From Lachnospiraceae bacterium MD335 (GTDB lineage: Bacteria > Bacillota > Clostridia > Lachnospirales > Lachnospiraceae), in assembly GCA_000403335.2 (NCBI GenBank), contig KE159628.1, forward strand, positions 309,434 through 373,433: DNA of 64,000 nt. Direction: 5' to 3'. The translations under genes were made by a program, and so were the position numbers. Shown piece after piece: positions 4,420 through 10,927 of the stretch. Below the pieces are notes generated by a model. That model was not told where the DNA came from, made no database searches, and saw only the letters and a program-made list of their open reading frames with translations. Position 1 is the stretch's first letter, and the number at the start of each line of letters is the position of its first letter.

Positions 4420-5127
4420 TTAAATTCCAGTCTTCATATACTGTAAAATCACATTGGAAAACTCCTTGCTCCGCAGTCTTGATACGGGGATTTGCCTGCC
4501 GTCTTCCATGTAGGCGGTGCCGTTTTTGTAGCTTTTTAAGTGCCTTAGGTTGATTAAAAAGCTTCTGTGGCACCGAAAAAAGCTGCTGCCGAGTTTCCGT
4601 TCGAGATTTTCAATGCGTTCATAATAGTCAACGACTTCCGAAGATGTTAAATGCAGATAGACTTTTCTGTCAATAATTTCACAAAAGATGATTTTGTCGA
4701 ATGGAATAATGCTGCTTTCGCAGCCTTTTTGTACCAGCAAATTTGTTTCATTGGCATTTTGTATGGAGACGAAAAGGCGTTCCATTGTTTTTTGAAAATG
4801 GCTTTCCTTGATTGGTTTGACCAAATAGTCGTATGCCTGTACACCGAAGGCTTCAAAAACCATTTCTTTGAGGATTGTCATGAAAATGAGAAACCCCTGA
4901 AAGCCGCTTTCCCGCAAGATTCTTGCGGTTTCCATACCGTTTATGGTCTTCATTTGTATATCCAAAAATAGAATGTCTATTTGTCTGCCGTAGTTTAGCA
5001 GTTCCTCGCCGCAGGAAAACTGCACGATTGCGATTTGCATATTTTTGCCGCAAAAAAAGTCGGATACCATTGTTTTGATGTTGTCCGACATCGTTTTTTC
5101 ATCGTCGCAGATTGCAATGCGTATCAT
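4420..5127 (-). CDS. Response regulator, LytTR family (AgrA-like)
   Basis: The start is set at MIRIAICDDE (5127). It follows a G-rich ribosome binding site, and the receiver domain begins there; the longer upstream reading frame is not needed. The receiver domain has the acidic pair CDDE, phosphoacceptor Asp in ILFLDIQMKT and Lys in YLVKPIK. The C-terminal LytTR DNA-binding domain includes FFRCHRSFLINL and the final VSRLRSKEFSNVI. The partner kinase is encoded directly downstream. A MITE-like element ends 35 bases upstream of the start codon, so any native promoter must lie inside or beyond it. Confidence 0.93.
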   Translation of the reverse strand: MIRIAICDDEKTMSDNIKTMVSDFFCGKNMQIAIVQFSCGEELLNYGRQIDILFLDIQMKTINGMETARILRESGFQGFLIFMTILKEMVFEAFGVQAYDYLVKPIKESHFQKTMERLFVSIQNANETNLLVQKGCESSIIPFDKIIFCEIIDRKVYLHLTSSEVVDYYERIENLERKLGSSFFRCHRSFLINLRHLKSYKNGTAYMEDGRQIPVSRLRSKEFSNVILQYMKTGI

Positions 5128-5162
5128 GTAATGCCCCCCCCTTTGCCTTGATATATAATATT

Positions 5163-5285
5163 TGTTACTATTCACGGCTCGGAAGCCGCTCATAGCAACG
5201 ATTCGGGGCGATATGCTCCTCACATACGAATCATGTTCTCACGCAACGCGCAGTAAATGCGCATTCCTGAACCGTGAAAAGTAAC
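5163..5285 (-). mobile_element. MITE-like palindromic element, copy 1
   Basis: A 123-bp non-coding element with terminal inverted repeats TGTTACTATTCACGG and CCGTGAAAAGTAAC (13 of 14 in the paired core). It is flanked by a perfect 7-bp direct repeat TAATATT at 5156-5162 and 5286-5292, the expected mark of a transposition target duplication. It is about 90% alike to a 146-bp copy at 9870-10015 when one is reverse-complemented. It has no reading frame, so it would depend on a transposase encoded elsewhere. It lies immediately upstream of a LytTR response regulator. Confidence 0.8.
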
Positions 5286-5476
5286 TAATATTCTACCATT
5301 TCTTTTTGGAGGATACAATGGAAATGTCTTGAAATGCGGGCTCGCTGTTGCAGAATGTCTTACGGTATGTTTATATTGCATTTTTTATGATATACATATA
5401 TACTAATCCGTGGATAACACCGCAAACGCGGCAGAATGGAACTTTTGAACGATTAGGAAAGGCTTGGGATTGTGAA

Positions 5477-7030
5477 ATGAGTATTTTGAATGTGGAAAAT
5501 CTTTCTCACGGGTTTGGCGACCGGACAATTTTTACAGATGTTTCGTTTCGGCTTTTAAAGGGCGAGCATATTGGGCTAGTCGGGGCGAACGGCGAGGGAA
5601 AGTCTACTTTTATGAATATTATTACCGGAAAGTTAATGCCGGATGAGGGTAAGGTAGAATGGTCAAAAAATGTGCGTGTGGGGTATTTGGATCAGCATAC
5701 GGCGCTTGAGAAGGGCATGACGGTGCGCGACGTTTTGGCGTCGGCGTTTGACTTTTTATATGAAATGGAACGGCGCATGAATGAGATTTGCGATAAGATG
5801 GGTGATGCGTCGGAAGCAGAACTTGAGGCATATATGGAGGAGCTTGGTACGATTCAGGAGCTTTTGGACCATCATGATTTTTATATGATTGACGCGAAGG
5901 TGGAGGAGGTTGCGCGGGCGCTTGGCATTCTTGAGGTCGGGCTTGAGACGGATGTCACGGATTTGAGCGGCGGACAGCGCACAAAGCTGATGCTTGGAAA
6001 GCTTTTGTTGGAAAAACCGGACATTTTGCTGTTGGACGAGCCGACGAATTATCTTGACGAAAATCATATCGAATGGCTGAAGCGGTATCTTCAGGAATAC
6101 GAGAATGCGTTTATTTTGATTTCACATGATATTCCGTTTTTGAATAGTGTGGTGAATCTGATTTATCATATGAATAATGCGGAGTTGAACCGCTATGTAG
6201 GCGATTACGACAAGTTTCAGGAGGTCTATGCGATGAAAAAGTCGCAGCTTGAGGCGGCTTATAATAAGCAGCAGAAGGAAATTGCCGACTTGAAGGATTT
6301 TGTGGCGCGCAATAAGGCGCGTGTGGCGACGCGGAATATGGCGATGTCGCGGCAGAAAAAGCTGGATAAAATGGATGTGATTGAACTTGCGTCGGAAAAA
6401 CCAAAGCCTGTATTTCATTTTCAGGAAGCTCGCACGAGCGGACGGTATATTTTTACTTCTAAGGACCTCGTGATTGGGTATGACGAAGCGCTTTCGAAAC
6501 CGCTTGACTTGTCGATGGAACGCGGGCAGAAGGTGGTGCTTACGGGTGCGAACGGAATTGGAAAAACGACGCTTTTGAAAAGCATTTTGGGGCTGATTGC
6601 ACCGCTTTCAGGCAGTGTGGAGCTTGGGGACTATCTTGAGATTGGGTATTTTGAGCAGGAAATGGACCAGTCAGTGGATACGACTTGTATTGAAGAGATT
6701 TGGAATACATTTCCTTCGTATACACAGTATGAGGTGCGTTCGGCGCTTGCAAAGTGCGGGCTTACAACAAAGCATATAGAAAGCAAGGTAAAGGTGCTTA
6801 GCGGCGGCGAGCAGGCGAAGGTGCGGCTTTGTAAGCTGATTAACCGTCCGACGAATATTCTGCTGTTGGACGAGCCGACCAATCATTTGGATGTGGATGC
6901 GAAGGCGGAGCTGAAACGGGCGTTGCAGGCGTACAAGGGCAGTATCTTAATGGTTTGCCATGAGCCAGAGTTTTATGACGGACTGGCTACGGATGTGTGG
7001 GATTGTTCGGAGTGGAGTTTACGGATTTAA
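5477..7030 (+). CDS. ABC-F family ATPase (ribosome-associated type)
   Basis: The start is set at MSILNVENLSHGFGD (5477), where the first nucleotide-binding domain begins. The upstream 43 codons of the open frame look unrelated. The protein has 517 residues and two ABC domains with no membrane segments. Domain 1 has Walker A GANGEGKSTF, signature LSGGQRTKL and Walker B ILLLDEPTNYLD; domain 2 has GANGIGKTTL, LSGGEQAKV and ILLLDEPTNHLD. The linker after domain 1 (SQLEAAYNKQQKEIADL through RQKKLDKMD) is the charged P-site tRNA interaction motif region of ABC-F proteins. Such factors act on the ribosome in translation or antibiotic protection. Which subgroup this is cannot be decided by eye, though it reads more like a housekeeping YkpA/YbiT type than a known resistance protein. 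Confidence 0.9.
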   Translation: MSILNVENLSHGFGDRTIFTDVSFRLLKGEHIGLVGANGEGKSTFMNIITGKLMPDEGKVEWSKNVRVGYLDQHTALEKGMTVRDVLASAFDFLYEMERRMNEICDKMGDASEAELEAYMEELGTIQELLDHHDFYMIDAKVEEVARALGILEVGLETDVTDLSGGQRTKLMLGKLLLEKPDILLLDEPTNYLDENHIEWLKRYLQEYENAFILISHDIPFLNSVVNLIYHMNNAELNRYVGDYDKFQEVYAMKKSQLEAAYNKQQKEIADLKDFVARNKARVATRNMAMSRQKKLDKMDVIELASEKPKPVFHFQEARTSGRYIFTSKDLVIGYDEALSKPLDLSMERGQKVVLTGANGIGKTTLLKSILGLIAPLSGSVELGDYLEIGYFEQEMDQSVDTTCIEEIWNTFPSYTQYEVRSALAKCGLTTKHIESKVKVLSGGEQAKVRLCKLINRPTNILLLDEPTNHLDVDAKAELKRALQAYKGSILMVCHEPEFYDGLATDVWDCSEWSLRI

Positions 7031-7037
7031 TGCTATT

Positions 7038-7063
7038 GGGACGCCTGTTTTTACAGACGTCCC
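7038..7063. terminator. Hairpin between convergent genes
   Basis: GGGACGCCTGT and ACAGACGTCCC form an 11-base stem with one mismatch around a short T loop. It lies 8 bases after the ABC-F stop and 15 bases past the stop of the opposing PAS gene, so it could serve both. The U tract is poor. Confidence 0.5.
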
Positions 7064-7078
7064 GTATTATGATGACTC

Positions 7079-7456
7079 TTAAATATCAAAATCATACATC
7101 TTCGCCGTTTCCGCGTTTCTGTATTCGTGCTTTTCGTAATATCCGATTAGCGTACCGTCCTCGTCCCGCAGCGCGACCATATAGACGTCTTTATTTTCTT
7201 TTTCATTATATGACGTGTAGACGATGTTGTTTTCTTTGCTCTTGGCAAACCATAGGACTACTTTTTTAATCATTTTTGAAGAGTTCGGATTGTGACAGTC
7301 CAAGAGGCTTTTCCCTATGAGCGCTGCACCTCCCCATTTCTGATAACGGGCAATCGCTGTCGGATTCATATAGATAATCTCATTTTCTAAGTTGCAGATT
7401 ACGACTGCGCATCTGTCCTGTTCGATAATGCTTTTAAAATATTTTGATATTTCCAT
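7079..7456 (-). CDS. Single PAS-domain protein
   Basis: A 125-residue soluble protein consisting of one PAS fold: CAVVICNLENEIIYMNPTA at about 17-35, then GKSLLDCHNP and a C-terminal sheet (DVYMVALRDEDGTLIGYYE). It has no attached output domain. Stand-alone PAS proteins of this size occur widely in Clostridia and may bind a small ligand or cofactor. No function is known to me. It is transcribed alone, convergent to the ABC-F gene. Confidence 0.8.
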   Translation of the reverse strand: MEISKYFKSIIEQDRCAVVICNLENEIIYMNPTAIARYQKWGGAALIGKSLLDCHNPNSSKMIKKVVLWFAKSKENNIVYTSYNEKENKDVYMVALRDEDGTLIGYYEKHEYRNAETAKMYDFDI

Positions 7457-7583
7457 TTGTGTTTCTCCTCGCTTTAAATGACAGAGGTGTCATTTTTTAT
7501 ATTGTGTGATTTATGGATTTATGTTCATAGTTTACACTATATTGTGTGTTTTTCCAAGCCAAATTTATATAAAGCTTTTCCTG

Positions 7584-8150
7584 TTATCTGACGACTCTGA
7601 TTTCAAACGCCGTTGTCTGCGGCGGAATGCTGGCGGTCATGAAGGCTGCATGGCGCACGCGGACACGCAGTCCGGGAACTAAGCCTGAGAAGTTCATCGG
7701 TCTTCCGAAGGCATTGAATATTTGTGCGTCGTCTGCTACGTTAAAGCGAATGACGGTTGACAGGTTTGCGTCGCTGATGGTTGTGAAGCTTCTGTTTTGT
7801 CTGTCGATGTCGACGATTCTGCCGATTGTTACGTTGTCATTTCGCGGTCTTCCTATCACTTGTATGACAAATGCTGCGGACTGCGGCGGGATACTTCTTG
7901 TTGTGGCATTGGAGAAGGCGGCGTTTACGGTCATTCCGACTCTTAAGTCCGTTATCGGTATCCGGTTGCTGTTTTCGTCCAAAATTACGGTGTTTCCGGT
8001 GACATTAAGGCGGATTTGCTGATTGTCGCGGCTGCAGGTTGGACAATCCGAATACGAAACCAGTACAAAAGAACCGCCTCTGCCTGTTTCTACGGCATCA
8101 ATTGTGCCGTTTGTGATTTGTGTTAAAAAATTATTGTCCATAAAGGTCAT
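7584..8150 (-). CDS. Conserved hypothetical protein with internal duplication
   Basis: A 188-residue protein without signal peptide or membrane segments. It contains two related beta-rich halves: the first ends RSIPPQSAAFVIQVIGR (about 98-114) and the second ends ASIPPQTTAFEIRVVR at the C-terminus. Each is preceded by a matching IRLNVTGN / IRFNVADD strand. An early CPTC pair (SYSDCPTCSRD) could bind metal or form a disulphide. The fold looks like repeated small beta barrels. I recall similar proteins in Lachnospiraceae but no function. The start could be either ATG of MTFMDNN. Confidence 0.65.
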   Translation of the reverse strand: MTFMDNNFLTQITNGTIDAVETGRGGSFVLVSYSDCPTCSRDNQQIRLNVTGNTVILDENSNRIPITDLRVGMTVNAAFSNATTRSIPPQSAAFVIQVIGRPRNDNVTIGRIVDIDRQNRSFTTISDANLSTVIRFNVADDAQIFNAFGRPMNFSGLVPGLRVRVRHAAFMTASIPPQTTAFEIRVVR

Positions 8151-8212
8151 CCTCGTGTTTTCTTTTAGTATATGCGGGGGTGACTTTTTTTGACAAAATC
8201 AGTCGCTATCAA

Positions 8213-8749
8213 TCATTTCAAGTCTACCGTATATAGTTCTTCTACGGGAACTGTAATTTTAACCAATCCAATCTCAACGAATTTGCCGCTGATTTTCCGA
8301 AATTCGCGGAGCACTAAATCGCTTGCCTGAAAAAAAGCCTCCTCGTTATCCTCACCTGTAAGCGCTATTGTACAATGCGGCACCCAACGGTCCGGATGAT
8401 ACCATTCCCAGCCTTTTGTATCAAATTCAGTCAGGCTTTCAAATAGCTCCCTTTGAAACTGATACATAGCGCTATTCATGATAGGTGATACAAAGATTGT
8501 TTTTGTATCATTAAACATGCCGACGGAGCCAATGTAGGCGGGCATTCTTTTGTGGCTTTGGGCAAAATCCTTTAGGCTCTCGATGCAGCGGTTCTCATCC
8601 ACATCATTGTAGCATGCCAACGTAAGATGCGGTCTTGTTTTCCACTCAAGAAATTTTGTACTGATTTTTGCATCTGCTATTTTTTGAGACAGTTGATTGA
8701 GTTTTTGTTCGGTTTCTTTGTCGAAATATAATTCGATTGCATATTTCAT
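8213..8749 (-). CDS. 2H phosphoesterase superfamily protein (2'-5' RNA ligase-like)
   Basis: The start is chosen at MKYAIELYFD (8749), preceded by AGAGGGGG. The 178-residue protein carries the two signature motifs of the 2H superfamily: PHLTLACY near residue 42 and PHCTIALT near 126. These supply the paired catalytic histidines. Family members hydrolyse or ligate 2'-5' phosphodiester or cyclic nucleotide bonds; the exact substrate here is unknown. It follows the broken Rpn-like gene by about 20 bases on the same strand and could be co-transcribed with it. Confidence 0.85.
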   Translation of the reverse strand: MKYAIELYFDKETEQKLNQLSQKIADAKISTKFLEWKTRPHLTLACYNDVDENRCIESLKDFAQSHKRMPAYIGSVGMFNDTKTIFVSPIMNSAMYQFQRELFESLTEFDTKGWEWYHPDRWVPHCTIALTGEDNEEAFFQASDLVLREFRKISGKFVEIGLVKITVPVEELYTVDLK

Positions 8750-8768
8750 AATAGTCCCCCTCTTTTTT

Positions 8769-9698
8769 CTATTGAGGCTTTTCCTGCGCCTCCTCGTGGC
8801 TGAGGTCAAATGCTTCCATAAGCTCTGTTACGATTTGTTCATCTGTATAGTTGTTTTTGCGCAATGCTTTTATCAGTTTTTCCATTCCTTGACTGATACC
8901 TGCTTTTCTGCCTTGTTCAAACACAAATTCGTCCTCTGCCCGGCGGTCGCGTTTGAATTTCAGTCGCATTTCGTGCTCTAATCGTATTCTGTCGGTCAGG
9001 CTTACTTCCCGCAACTCTTTAATTGCTTCCATAATTCCGTGGTTTTTTGTTTTTGATTTCAGCATATCTATTCTCCATTCTTACCAAAGTCTGCGAATTT
9101 GGGCGTCAGCACAAATTTGCCGATTGAAAAATCTTTGATTTTTCAATCTATCCTCCTCTGTCTTTGCATTAAACAGGCTGTGCCATTCATTGAGCGGACA
9201 TGGTTTTTCTTTGTTTGGGTTCTTTTTCAATTCTATTGTGTGCAGTTCCAATACGTCCAAATACAACTTTCCATGTTTGTCGCGCAGTGCGTATATGTTA
9301 TGATAGTCCGCGCGTTCGTCAATATTAAAGTCCAATATGGATATCGCAATACATTTTTTTGCCTTTTTATAAGCTTCCCCACGCCTTAAATCGGCAGTAT
9401 ACATTTTTGCAGGATAAAAAATGCTTCTTTTTTCCCAATGCGACTGTTGTTTTATTTGCAATTCAATATTAATATTTGTGTCATTATTGAGTTCCAGTTG
9501 GATATCCAAAATGCCCTGTTTCCGTCGTTTATAGCGTTTCCAAAAGAACGGGTTCATAATCCGCACGGATTTGATGTCCGCAAGCGGAATATTCAGTACA
9601 TCGCTGATAAAGTGTTTTCGGACAATTTCGTTGTCCGCGCCGAATATCGGCGTATTTCACTTAATACAAAAATCGTATTTCAATGATGTTATTTTCAT
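8769..9698 (-). pseudogene. Broken Rpn/PD-(D/E)XK-type nuclease gene
   Basis: Read on the minus strand, the gene starts MKITSLKYDFCIK at 9698 and meets a TGA at 9659-9657. The family sequence resumes in another frame (GADNEIVRKHFISDVLNIPL) and then continues from RIMNPFFWKRYKRRKQG through LELNNDTNINIELQIKQQ, which holds the D-x(n)-E-x-Q nuclease signature. It stops at a TAA near 9081. The same frame then continues with MLKSKTKNHGIMEAIKEL to 8769. There are therefore three pieces: a frameshift with a small deletion near 9655, and an inserted ~80-base palindromic sequence with a stop near 9080-9150. Rpn/PDDEXK_2 proteins are recombination-promoting nucleases often encoded in many copies. This copy is almost certainly dead unless the last two pieces are read through. 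Confidence 0.75.
9072..9151 (-). repeat. Palindrome-bearing insertion inside the Rpn-like gene
   Basis: This segment contains a perfect hairpin at 9122-9148 (GATTGAAAAATC / GATTTTTCAATC around TTT). A unique stretch follows on the minus strand, encoding ICADAQIRRLW and then TAA. ATCTAT stands at both borders (9066-9071 and 9146-9151), giving an 80-base period. It interrupts a conserved part of the nuclease family (EED...DMLKSK) without changing frame. It resembles palindromic elements known to insert in frame within genes, such as those in Rickettsia, but that parallel is an inference. Confidence 0.55.
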
Positions 9699-9869
9699 TA
9701 TAGCCTCTCCTTACTGTTGTTTCAATTGATTTTCTTTCGAAATTAAATTCATTTTTTGGAATTTATGGCGATATGCCATGATTTTTGTATATAATATTTT
9801 TGAGTATAGCATACTTGTGTTATGTAAACAAGTCTTTTCTGAGAATTATCTGAAATTGCGGTAACAGTT

Positions 9870-10015
9870 TGTTACTTTTCACGGGTCAGGAATGCGCATT
9901 TACTGCGCGTTCCGTGAGAACATGATTCATATGTGAGGGGCGATTTTTGCGAAGCAAAATTTGCATATCGCCCCGAATCGTTGCTATGAGCGGCTCCCGA
10001 TCCGTGAATAGTAAC
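9870..10015 (+). mobile_element. MITE-like palindromic element, copy 2
   Basis: A 146-bp non-coding element with ends TGTTACTTTTCACGG and CCGTGAATAGTAAC, flanked by the perfect 7-bp direct repeat AACAGTT (9863-9869 and 10016-10022). It matches copy 1 (5163-5285) in inverted orientation. The main difference is about 24 extra bases forming an inner hairpin (GGGGCGAT ... ATCGCCCC). It lies 195 bases upstream of the second LytTR regulator, in the same orientation relative to that gene as copy 1 is to its own. Confidence 0.8.
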
Positions 10016-10210
10016 AACAGTTCAGCCTTCGGCTTCCTGTTACAAATTACGCAAGTCAAACGCCTTTCGGAAAGCAGATTTGTTAGCAAAAACTTGTATT
10101 GATAATCCGTTTAAAACATCTAAACGCCCGTTTATGACATTCGCAAAGCTCCTATAACATTTATGTCGATATATGTAATACATAATCTATTCGCAAAGCA
10201 GGTGGTTTCT

Positions 10211-10927
10211 ATGCTGTCCATCGCAGTATGTGATGATGAAATTATTGAATGCTGCAATATCGCAGGAGCAATCAAGGAAATATTAGATGAAATGAAAGTC
10301 CCCTGCACGATACGGCAGTTTTACAGCGGGCGGGAGTTTGTGCGGTCCGCAGGCAATTTTGACATTATTTTTCTTGATATTATCATGCATGATTTGGACG
10401 GACTGCGGACTGCACAGATTTTTCGGGAAAATGCATTTGACAAAATCCTTATTTTTATCTCTTCCAGCAGGGATTATGTATTTGATGCCTATGACGTAGA
10501 GGCGTTTCAATATTTACTAAAGCCGATTGATAACCAAAAATTAAAAAGAGTGCTGCAAAAGGCTGTTTGGAAAATAGAAACGCCTTCGCAGGAATTTATA
10601 GTCGTCAACAAAGAGAGACAGACAACAAAGTGGTTTTTGAATGATATTTACTATTTTGAAATCAGAGGAAGAATGGTTGAAATTCATGGGGCAAACGGTG
10701 TTTTTAGCTATTATGAACAGATTCATGTTTTGGAACAGAACCTGCGGGATAAAGGATTTTTCCGCTGCCACAAAAGTTATCTCATCAATCTAAAATATGT
10801 TGATGTCTATAATAAGCAGGAAGTAATCCTTGATAATGGGGAACAAATTACAATCGCGAAACGAAGATACGCGGAATTTTGCAGGGAAATCCTCGCATAT
10901 ATGCGCAAAAACGGAGGCATTCTATGA
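10211..10927 (+). CDS. Response regulator, LytTR family (AgrA-like), second system
   Basis: The start is set at MLSIAVCDDE (10211), seven bases after an AGGTGG site; the longer frame upstream lacks domain similarity. Receiver domain: CDDEIIEC, phosphoacceptor Asp in IIFLDIIMHD and Lys in YLLKPID. The LytTR domain includes FFRCHKSYLINL and ends ITIAKRRYAEFCREI, parallel to the regulator at 4420-5127. The two proteins are clearly related but only moderately alike, so they are paralogues and not a recent copy. Its stop overlaps the kinase start (ATGA), giving translational coupling. Confidence 0.93.
   Translation: MLSIAVCDDEIIECCNIAGAIKEILDEMKVPCTIRQFYSGREFVRSAGNFDIIFLDIIMHDLDGLRTAQIFRENAFDKILIFISSSRDYVFDAYDVEAFQYLLKPIDNQKLKRVLQKAVWKIETPSQEFIVVNKERQTTKWFLNDIYYFEIRGRMVEIHGANGVFSYYEQIHVLEQNLRDKGFFRCHKSYLINLKYVDVYNKQEVILDNGEQITIAKRRYAEFCREILAYMRKNGGIL

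Follow-up and report, generated by a model that had tools for sequence, protein, structure and literature searches.

Introduction

Among the short repeats described in bacteria, the closest kinds to the two elements treated here, as judged by analogy, would be the BOX, RUP and SPRITE repeats of pneumococci and the bcr repeats (bcr1–bcr18) of Bacillus cereus. Our elements, named E1 and E2, lie in a 64,000-nt stretch of contig KE159628.1 of Lachnospiraceae bacterium MD335 (positions 309,434 to 373,433; this whole stretch is called the window below), each upstream of a gene for a response regulator with a LytTR domain. They are very probably non-autonomous miniature inverted-repeat transposable elements (MITEs) that are moved by an IS66-type transposase, have a body of three hairpins (H1, H2 and H3), and belong to a family whose copies, when located behind a gene, are mostly in sense.

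Like our elements, BOX, RUP and SPRITE are short, structured, non-coding and present in many copies; BOX and RUP are presumed to be moved in trans by insertion sequences, and the three families are overrepresented between convergent genes, with 61–63% on the leading strand (PMC3049150). In the family described here, by contrast, few sites are convergent (16/143) and, outside the subfamily of E1 and E2 (E type), sense orientation strongly predominates, the comparison being one of descriptions only. The repeats bcr1–bcr3 are MITE-like and often located in untranslated regions or between the genes of operons, and conserved secondary structure is a feature of bcr10 and bcr18 (PMC3446304). The bcr repeats belong to another host group, and are likewise likened to ours by description only.

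The REP/RAYT systems, as generally understood, produce no target duplication and use a single-strand transposase. They share with our family the dispersed short palindromes (solo H3 units of 27–32 bp are described below) and differ from it by the 8-bp duplications and IS66-type ends found here. An 8-bp duplication is the reference value for IS66 elements (PMC3281130, PMC12898284), and ISDge4, of the ISBst12 group of IS66, has the ends GTGACTACTCAGCA/GTAACTGCTCAGCA and an 8-bp repeat (PMC12898284). Its end GTAACTGCTCAGCA is like GTAACTGTTCAGCAGG of one subfamily here, and both the duplication length and the IS66 transposase domain of the partner elements presented below are shared with that group (PMC12898284); the MITEs differ in being gene-free, and two of the partner proteins fall under the NCBIfam cut-off for IS66 equivalogs. 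The family was not described under any title found in the open-licence literature on IS66, MITEs and Lachnospiraceae repeats, and the main text of a 2024 review of prokaryotic MITEs mentions neither IS66 nor bcr1, nor any name containing Lachnospir or Clostridi (PMC10969869).

Results and discussion

Copy number and distribution

E1 (122 bp) and E2 (145 bp) share the ends TGTTACTNTTCACGG/CCGTGAANAGTAAC, and both their ends and their locations are as first noted; when the element is read with H1 first, E1 is on the minus and E2 on the plus strand (Table 1). A scan for these ends gave three exact matches and one with a single mismatch, while allowing up to three mismatches gave 11 matches compared with 4.8 expected from shuffles. 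The palindromic body had been predicted to fold, and the foldback energy of both elements is indeed far below that of shuffled sequences, whichever strand is folded (z −4.1 to −8.6). E1 lacks the inner part of H2 and is thus an internal-deletion form.

A BLASTN search with E2 returned five places in this genome. A covariance model (R1) of 27 copies from sister subfamilies, in the building of which E1 and E2 were not used, detected at least 49 copies at E ≤ 0.001, with 150 of 1662 first-look candidates scored. The genome search that the original prediction proposed for both copies does, then, recover members of one family, although these are at least 49 rather than two. With the most conserved part of the element, the H1 region, as a search pattern (GCATTTACTGC-N5-CCGTGAGAA), at least 118 stretches were found in public bacterial genomes; the best 80 of the 118 were, by title, mostly from Lachnospiraceae or its genera, other genera included, and there were no matches (0) in viral contigs. 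The pattern showing both stem arms occurred in 18 of 38 genomes of the genus (reversed control: 0) and in 9 of 397 genomes drawn across the family, representing 8 of 334 genera, while R1 matches were present in at least 32 of the 38 genus genomes. The MITE family is therefore large in one genus of gut-type bacteria, and is also present in other genera. De-duplication and flank limits reduced 209 pattern matches to 148 copies, two of them at edges, which were used for the analyses of structure given below.

Target duplications and IS66 partners

It had been claimed that each element is flanked by its own perfect 7-bp direct repeat. A separate duplication does flank each of them, but it is 8 bp long and imperfect, the two copies agreeing at 7/8 positions, with one base altered, for E1 as well as for E2 (Table 1). 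The length follows from the 41 copies with a perfect 7-bp match, in 37 of which the next base also agreed, so that the extra base equals the base after the other copy; the same agreement at the eighth base (37/41) rules out a 7-bp duplication with one extra polar base. Because their 8-bp duplications are different, E1 and E2 are two separate insertions, as had been proposed. With ends set by the model alone, at least 6 of the 8 bases are duplicated in 37 of the 49 own-genome copies; this is the unbiased count, an earlier choice of ends having partly used the duplication itself.

An empty-site search with 120 joined flanks gave one clear case, in which the flanks of a copy (locus L065) match, without gaps and at 78% identity, an uninterrupted 116 bp of this genome. 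There was no empty-site allele for E1 or E2 among the loci searched. Self-matches of L022, L073 and L127, which are tandem arrays, were discarded, and the match of the joined E2 flanks to L315 (76.5% with gaps, largely over H3) was not counted. Tandem arrays of three and two copies are present in G000 (C1:890586-891009 and C13:420325-420615); adjacent elements in them are separated by a single 8-bp target sequence, GAACTTGA and GTTGATTT.

An end-pattern search of seven sister genomes found, in one of them, two facing ends 2.3 kb apart (L164). The ends are identical over 19 bp, the same duplication, TATCAATA, is present on both sides, and between the ends is encoded a 580-aa protein with an IS66 transposase domain. 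In all, three sister genomes yielded three IS66-family elements whose ends are the same or closely related and whose duplications are perfect (8/8): L164/L166 (ends GTTACTTTTCACGGGT, duplication TATCAATA), L168 (ends starting GTTACTGTTCAC, duplication GCTGCTTT) and L169 (ends GTTACTTTTCACACCC, duplication AAGAATAG), all with the domain DDE_Tnp_IS66, which scores above the Pfam cut-off in 3/3 proteins. L168 and L169 are full elements with related ends (GTTACTNTTCAC). A fourth element, L185, has the ends and no duplication (2/8), and L165, considered as a 5.2-kb element bounded by the ends, turned out to be two separate MITEs.

The elements are thus short and non-coding, with terminal inverted repeats, a target duplication and multiple copies, and autonomous relatives whose ends are the same or closely related exist in sister genomes. 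The MITE call of the original prediction is borne out by a mobilizing family identified through matching ends and duplication length, and by one empty site; a transposase gene bounded by such ends, which had been suggested as a check, was found in sister genomes and not in this one. We infer that the predicted IS66 transposase acts in trans: it would mobilize the family through the ends shared with the MITEs. Two results weigh against this assignment. The L164 and L169 proteins score 150.7 and 130 against an NCBIfam equivalog cut-off of 180 (both below), and none of the 11 IS66 gene matches in this genome has such ends within the stretches scanned, several of them being at contig ends. The own-genome IS66 genes were for this reason rejected as partners, though a contig boundary may have removed an end. 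A search with the L164 protein gave matches in 11 of the 38 genus genomes, this genome not being among them. Since no IS66 element with such ends was found here, the copies in this genome may be dormant. Since ends and duplications tie this MITE family to IS66 elements of the ISBst12 type, transposition can be tested directly.

Hairpins and covariation

The body of the element consists of three hairpins with covarying stems, as seen when 27 copies outside the E type and 15 within it were aligned. It should be borne in mind that the structures were drawn from the same alignments that were scored, and that the match of the terminal repeats was one criterion for choosing the aligned copies, so that the end-to-end stem is favoured. 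In the 27 copies, 90.3% of cells are paired, with a covariation score of 0.367 versus 0.123 for shuffled alignments; in the 15 E-type copies, 96.3% are paired and the score is 0.125 versus 0.100, a small margin because this set is closer-knit.

H1 was located by a pattern in which the stem is left free; at the five free pairs, 230 of 280 cells over 56 distinct stems are Watson–Crick, compared with 117 (standard deviation 8) after shuffling. Its loop, ATTTACT, is present in 137 of 148 copies and the GTGAGAA tail in 142 of 148, a constancy that is partly a matter of sample choice, loop and tail having belonged to the search pattern; own-genome copies found by the model have looser loops, e.g. 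ACTTGCT. The triloop of H2 is mostly GNA (113/148, the hairpin having been chosen with a bonus for G..A), and H2 pairing (296/365 versus 125 shuffled) is inflated by the choice of the hairpin by its pairing, from which the scores of the 27- and 15-copy alignments are free. A pseudoknot between the H1–H2 linker and H2 can be seen by eye in a few copies and is absent in others.

H3 is formed where the right end pairs with a third, internal copy of the terminal repeat, and in the 27 copies 98.1% of its cells are paired. The right terminal repeat can therefore pair either with the left repeat or with the arm of H3. At the N of the ends, pairing with the H3 arm is seen in 14/15 copies and pairing with the left repeat in 7/15; the right end accordingly tracks its H3 partner at this position, the ends being unpaired in 8/15 copies and the H3 pair in 1/15.

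Palindromic DNA can undergo arm-to-arm correction, and the hairpins might be passive palindromes whose arms are kept in step by template-switch (quasipalindrome) repair, so that covariation would say nothing about function. The better match of the H3 arms (98.1%) than of the terminal repeats (89.8%) is what such repair would give, and no clear excess of G-U over A-C is seen in the fixed alignments discussed below. We nevertheless consider this explanation distinctly unlikely, since it accounts neither for the steady H1 loop and GTGAGAA tail (137/148 and 142/148, both partly fixed by the pattern) nor for the sense bias.

With E values up to 10 allowed, a search of five loci against Rfam 15 returned 11 matches, all below the gathering score; the sole match inside an element was sR39, with 14.8 of 50 bits.

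Orientation and strand

In a set of 143 sites (merged from 146), the H1-first strand was sense to both neighbouring genes at 69 sites and antisense at 20, the remaining sites being divergent (38) or convergent (16). Outside the E type the counts were 60 sense to 12 antisense (18 to 4 for unclassified copies). A second set comprised 74 genus sites with their 20-kb regions (87 matches, of which 84 had both neighbours and 74 were independent) and 48 own sites, one own copy without a right neighbour being omitted; its tandem sites were 75 sense to 16 antisense. Of the 143 sites, 24 recur in the regions of the second set, and the 119 that do not overlap still gave 56 to 15. The tandem sense sites of the second set are close to the upstream gene, the element beginning within 15 nt after the upstream stop codon in 27/75 cases and ending within 15 nt before the next start codon in 7/75.

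We read this bias as reflecting selection tied to transcription into the element from the upstream gene. It is quite possible, and we suggest it tentatively, that selection acts on RNA transcribed from the H1-first strand. Copies behind a gene would then be kept mainly in sense and, as these often follow shortly after a stop codon, the folded RNA would be either harmless to the upstream message or protective of it. If the sense bias does arise at the RNA level, dozens of messages per genome would end in a common mobile structure.

As to which strand folds, the stems give no more than a hint, and orientation is the stronger sign. On the H1-first strand, G-U outnumbered A-C pairs by 35 to 15 distinct stem types (p 0.007; the H2 hairpin having been located by its pairing), with 19 to 7 in the inner five pairs of H1 and 16 to 8 in H2; the outer two pairs of H1, where the pattern fixes the 3' base, gave 3 to 12. 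In fixed alignments (A2 and A3) H1 had 10 to 1 and H3 20 to 4 cells. An excess of G-U over A-C was not retained as proof of the folded strand, not being confirmed on the fixed alignments as a whole.

Several observations count against selection at the RNA level. The fixed alignments gave 41 to 26 cells overall and 20 to 16 types (p 0.62), and in H2 the balance was reversed (11 to 21 cells). E1 and E2 themselves are of the E type, which is 9 sense to 8 antisense. The orientation of tandem sites tracks replication as well as transcription, only 3/91 being discordant (two agree with the fork and one with the genes), and at 9/10 convergent sites of the second set the orientation is that of the fork. 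In addition, the gene calls come from a crude open reading frame (ORF) scan.

These observations lead to an alternative explanation, in which the hairpins act as single-stranded DNA recognized on the lagging-strand template, so that orientation follows the replication fork and not transcription. The H1-first strand, being the coding strand of leading-strand genes, is the lagging-strand template too; 41 of the 49 own copies follow GC skew, as 9/10 convergent sites follow the fork. GNA triloops are very stable in DNA, and they are present in 113/148 copies, with the G..A bonus mentioned above. Divergent sites of the second set, however, show no fork bias (12/21), a result with a probability of 0.006 were the 82% tandem sense rate to hold. 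At the smaller loci, GC skew was positive at 24/38 divergent and 10/16 convergent sites (34/54 symmetric contexts). Furthermore, duplications of 8 bp suggest that the transposase is of the DDE type and works on duplex DNA, and none of the IS66 loci scanned contains the exact loop motif of H1, single 8-mers of the H1 tail being present in L168 (inside the gene) and L177. We regard this explanation as rather unlikely; the counts for divergent sites (12/21), and those for distal genes (26 to 21) and GC skew (34/54) in symmetric contexts, make replication less likely as the sole cause of orientation without settling the matter.

Returning to selection on the RNA, a more specific version of it can be put forward. 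The family would be a mobile untranslated-region cassette, driven by IS66, whose conserved three-hairpin RNA is kept mainly in sense behind stop codons, acts in cis on the messages of its hosts, for example as a 3' stabilizer or processing site, and can switch between H3 and the end-to-end stem, both partners being open to the right end. On the sequence data considered here, this full version is unlikely.

The spacer between nrdD and nrdG (L002:1501-1646 and L035:1488-1619) carries an antisense E-type copy in this genome and, in another species, as located by the flanking codons, a sense copy of another subfamily; these are two separate insertions into the same operon spacer.

Association with LytTR regulators

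The original prediction drew attention to the position of both elements before regulators of one family, and the details it gave are right: E1 and E2 are 35 and about 195 nt from the respective start codons and have the same orientation relative to the regulator. It also proposed that the elements might serve these genes as mobile promoters, leader RNAs or insulators. That they are recruited control elements of LytTR regulators is an explanation to which we attach very little probability. E1, E2 and the copy at C1:1303946 do stand before LytTR genes in sense, and of the 28 LytTR matches in the genome four have an adjoining copy, compared with about 0.6 expected (p 0.003; the expectation assumes 4,700 genes, and the test was made after the fact). 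The adjoining copies are E1, E2, C1:712944, and C1:1303946 and C1:1304564, which flank one 117-aa protein (L297:10296-10649) with little beyond the LytTR domain. However, 44 of the 49 own copies do not adjoin a LytTR match, and in the wider set LytTR proteins occupy 1 of 285 neighbour slots (E2 itself) versus 2 of 965 non-neighbour ORFs, where small LytTR genes may be under-counted because the scan missed the 117-aa protein. The association with LytTR is not a family trait, and this is the message for the first observation.

As for the proposed functions, scans of the E1 and E2 regions, which are weak evidence, found no intrinsic terminator or sigma-70 promoter consensus inside the elements, the one promoter-like and one terminator-like site being both outside them, so that a mobile promoter finds no consensus support. 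For a leader RNA or insulator the picture is mixed: a role as RNA in general would agree with the conservation of the hairpins and with the family's sense bias, whereas the E subfamily is evenly oriented (9 to 8) and E1 and E2 are each located within a divergent gene pair, a context in which the family shows no fork bias (12/21).

The landing site of E2

E2 splits a 30-bp palindrome that is the reverse complement of H3 of the genome's main subfamily, and whose own flanks, AAATTGCG (9853-9860) and AAATTACG (10044-10051), match at 7/8 positions. This older H3 micro-element, serving as the target, would account best for the position of E2; the LytTR gene would not. More generally, the left ends of E-type copies lie in the motif GTAAC[AT]NTT in 6/40 cases, versus 0.007 expected and 0/89 among other copies, and the same motif occurs in the ends and H3 of sister elements; one subfamily seems to use H3 palindromes as a landing site.

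Solo H3 units are 27–32 bp long. Flanking duplications of at least 7/8 were seen for 4 of the 22 solo palindromes from other genomes (0.15 expected) and for 1 of the 12 from own stretches (0.05 expected), at least three of the 12 being H3s of full copies missed by the filter. Solo units may have moved as such; alternatively, a deletion may have joined the left end to the H3 arm, the two being direct repeats. If moved as such, H3-only units of 27–32 bp with 8-bp duplications would be very small transposed units. Palindromes of 27–28 bp consisting of two IS66-type ends only, with perfect 8-bp duplications, were observed at L059:6775, L083:4602 and L132:2529.

Features of the window

The positions of the elements, their parts and the adjoining regulators are collected in Table 1.

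Table 1. Features of E1, E2 and their surroundings (positions within the window; strand of elements as read with H1 first).
Feature	Position	Strand	Basis or remark
E1, MITE copy, internal-deletion form	5164..5285	-	Covariance model R1: 48.4 bits, E 4.8e-10
E1 target duplication, copy 1, TAATATTT	5156..5163	.	7/8 match with copy 2
E1 target duplication, copy 2, TAATATTC	5286..5293	.	
E2, full MITE copy	9871..10015	+	Covariance model R1: 83.9 bits, E 1.1e-18
E2 hairpin H1, loop ATTTACT then GTGAGAA	9889..9913	+	Alignment
E2 hairpin H2, inner GAA triloop	9937..9974	+	Alignment
E2 hairpin H3, 3' arm = right terminal repeat	9980..10015	+	Alignment
E2 target duplication, copy 1, AACAGTTT	9863..9870	.	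7/8 match with copy 2
E2 target duplication, copy 2, AACAGTTC	10016..10023	.	
Solo-H3 micro-element (30 bp) split by E2	9861..10043	-	Reverse complement of H3, genome's main subfamily
LytTR response regulator downstream of E1 (neighbour, outside element)	4420..5127	-	
LytTR response regulator downstream of E2 (neighbour)	10211..10927	+	ORF from 10163; ATG at 10211

Both regulators have Response_reg and LytTR domains, and a GHKL kinase gene is adjacent to each. A protein with two ABC_tran domains, which we take to be of the ABC-F type, is encoded at 5348-7030; as its gene is divergent from that of the E1-side regulator, E1 is in the upstream region of both. On the minus strand at 9081-9566 is a gene for a transposase of the PD-(D/E)XK nuclease family (PDDEXK_2), which may be split, and behind it is a 98-aa ORF (8769-9065) with no Pfam match.

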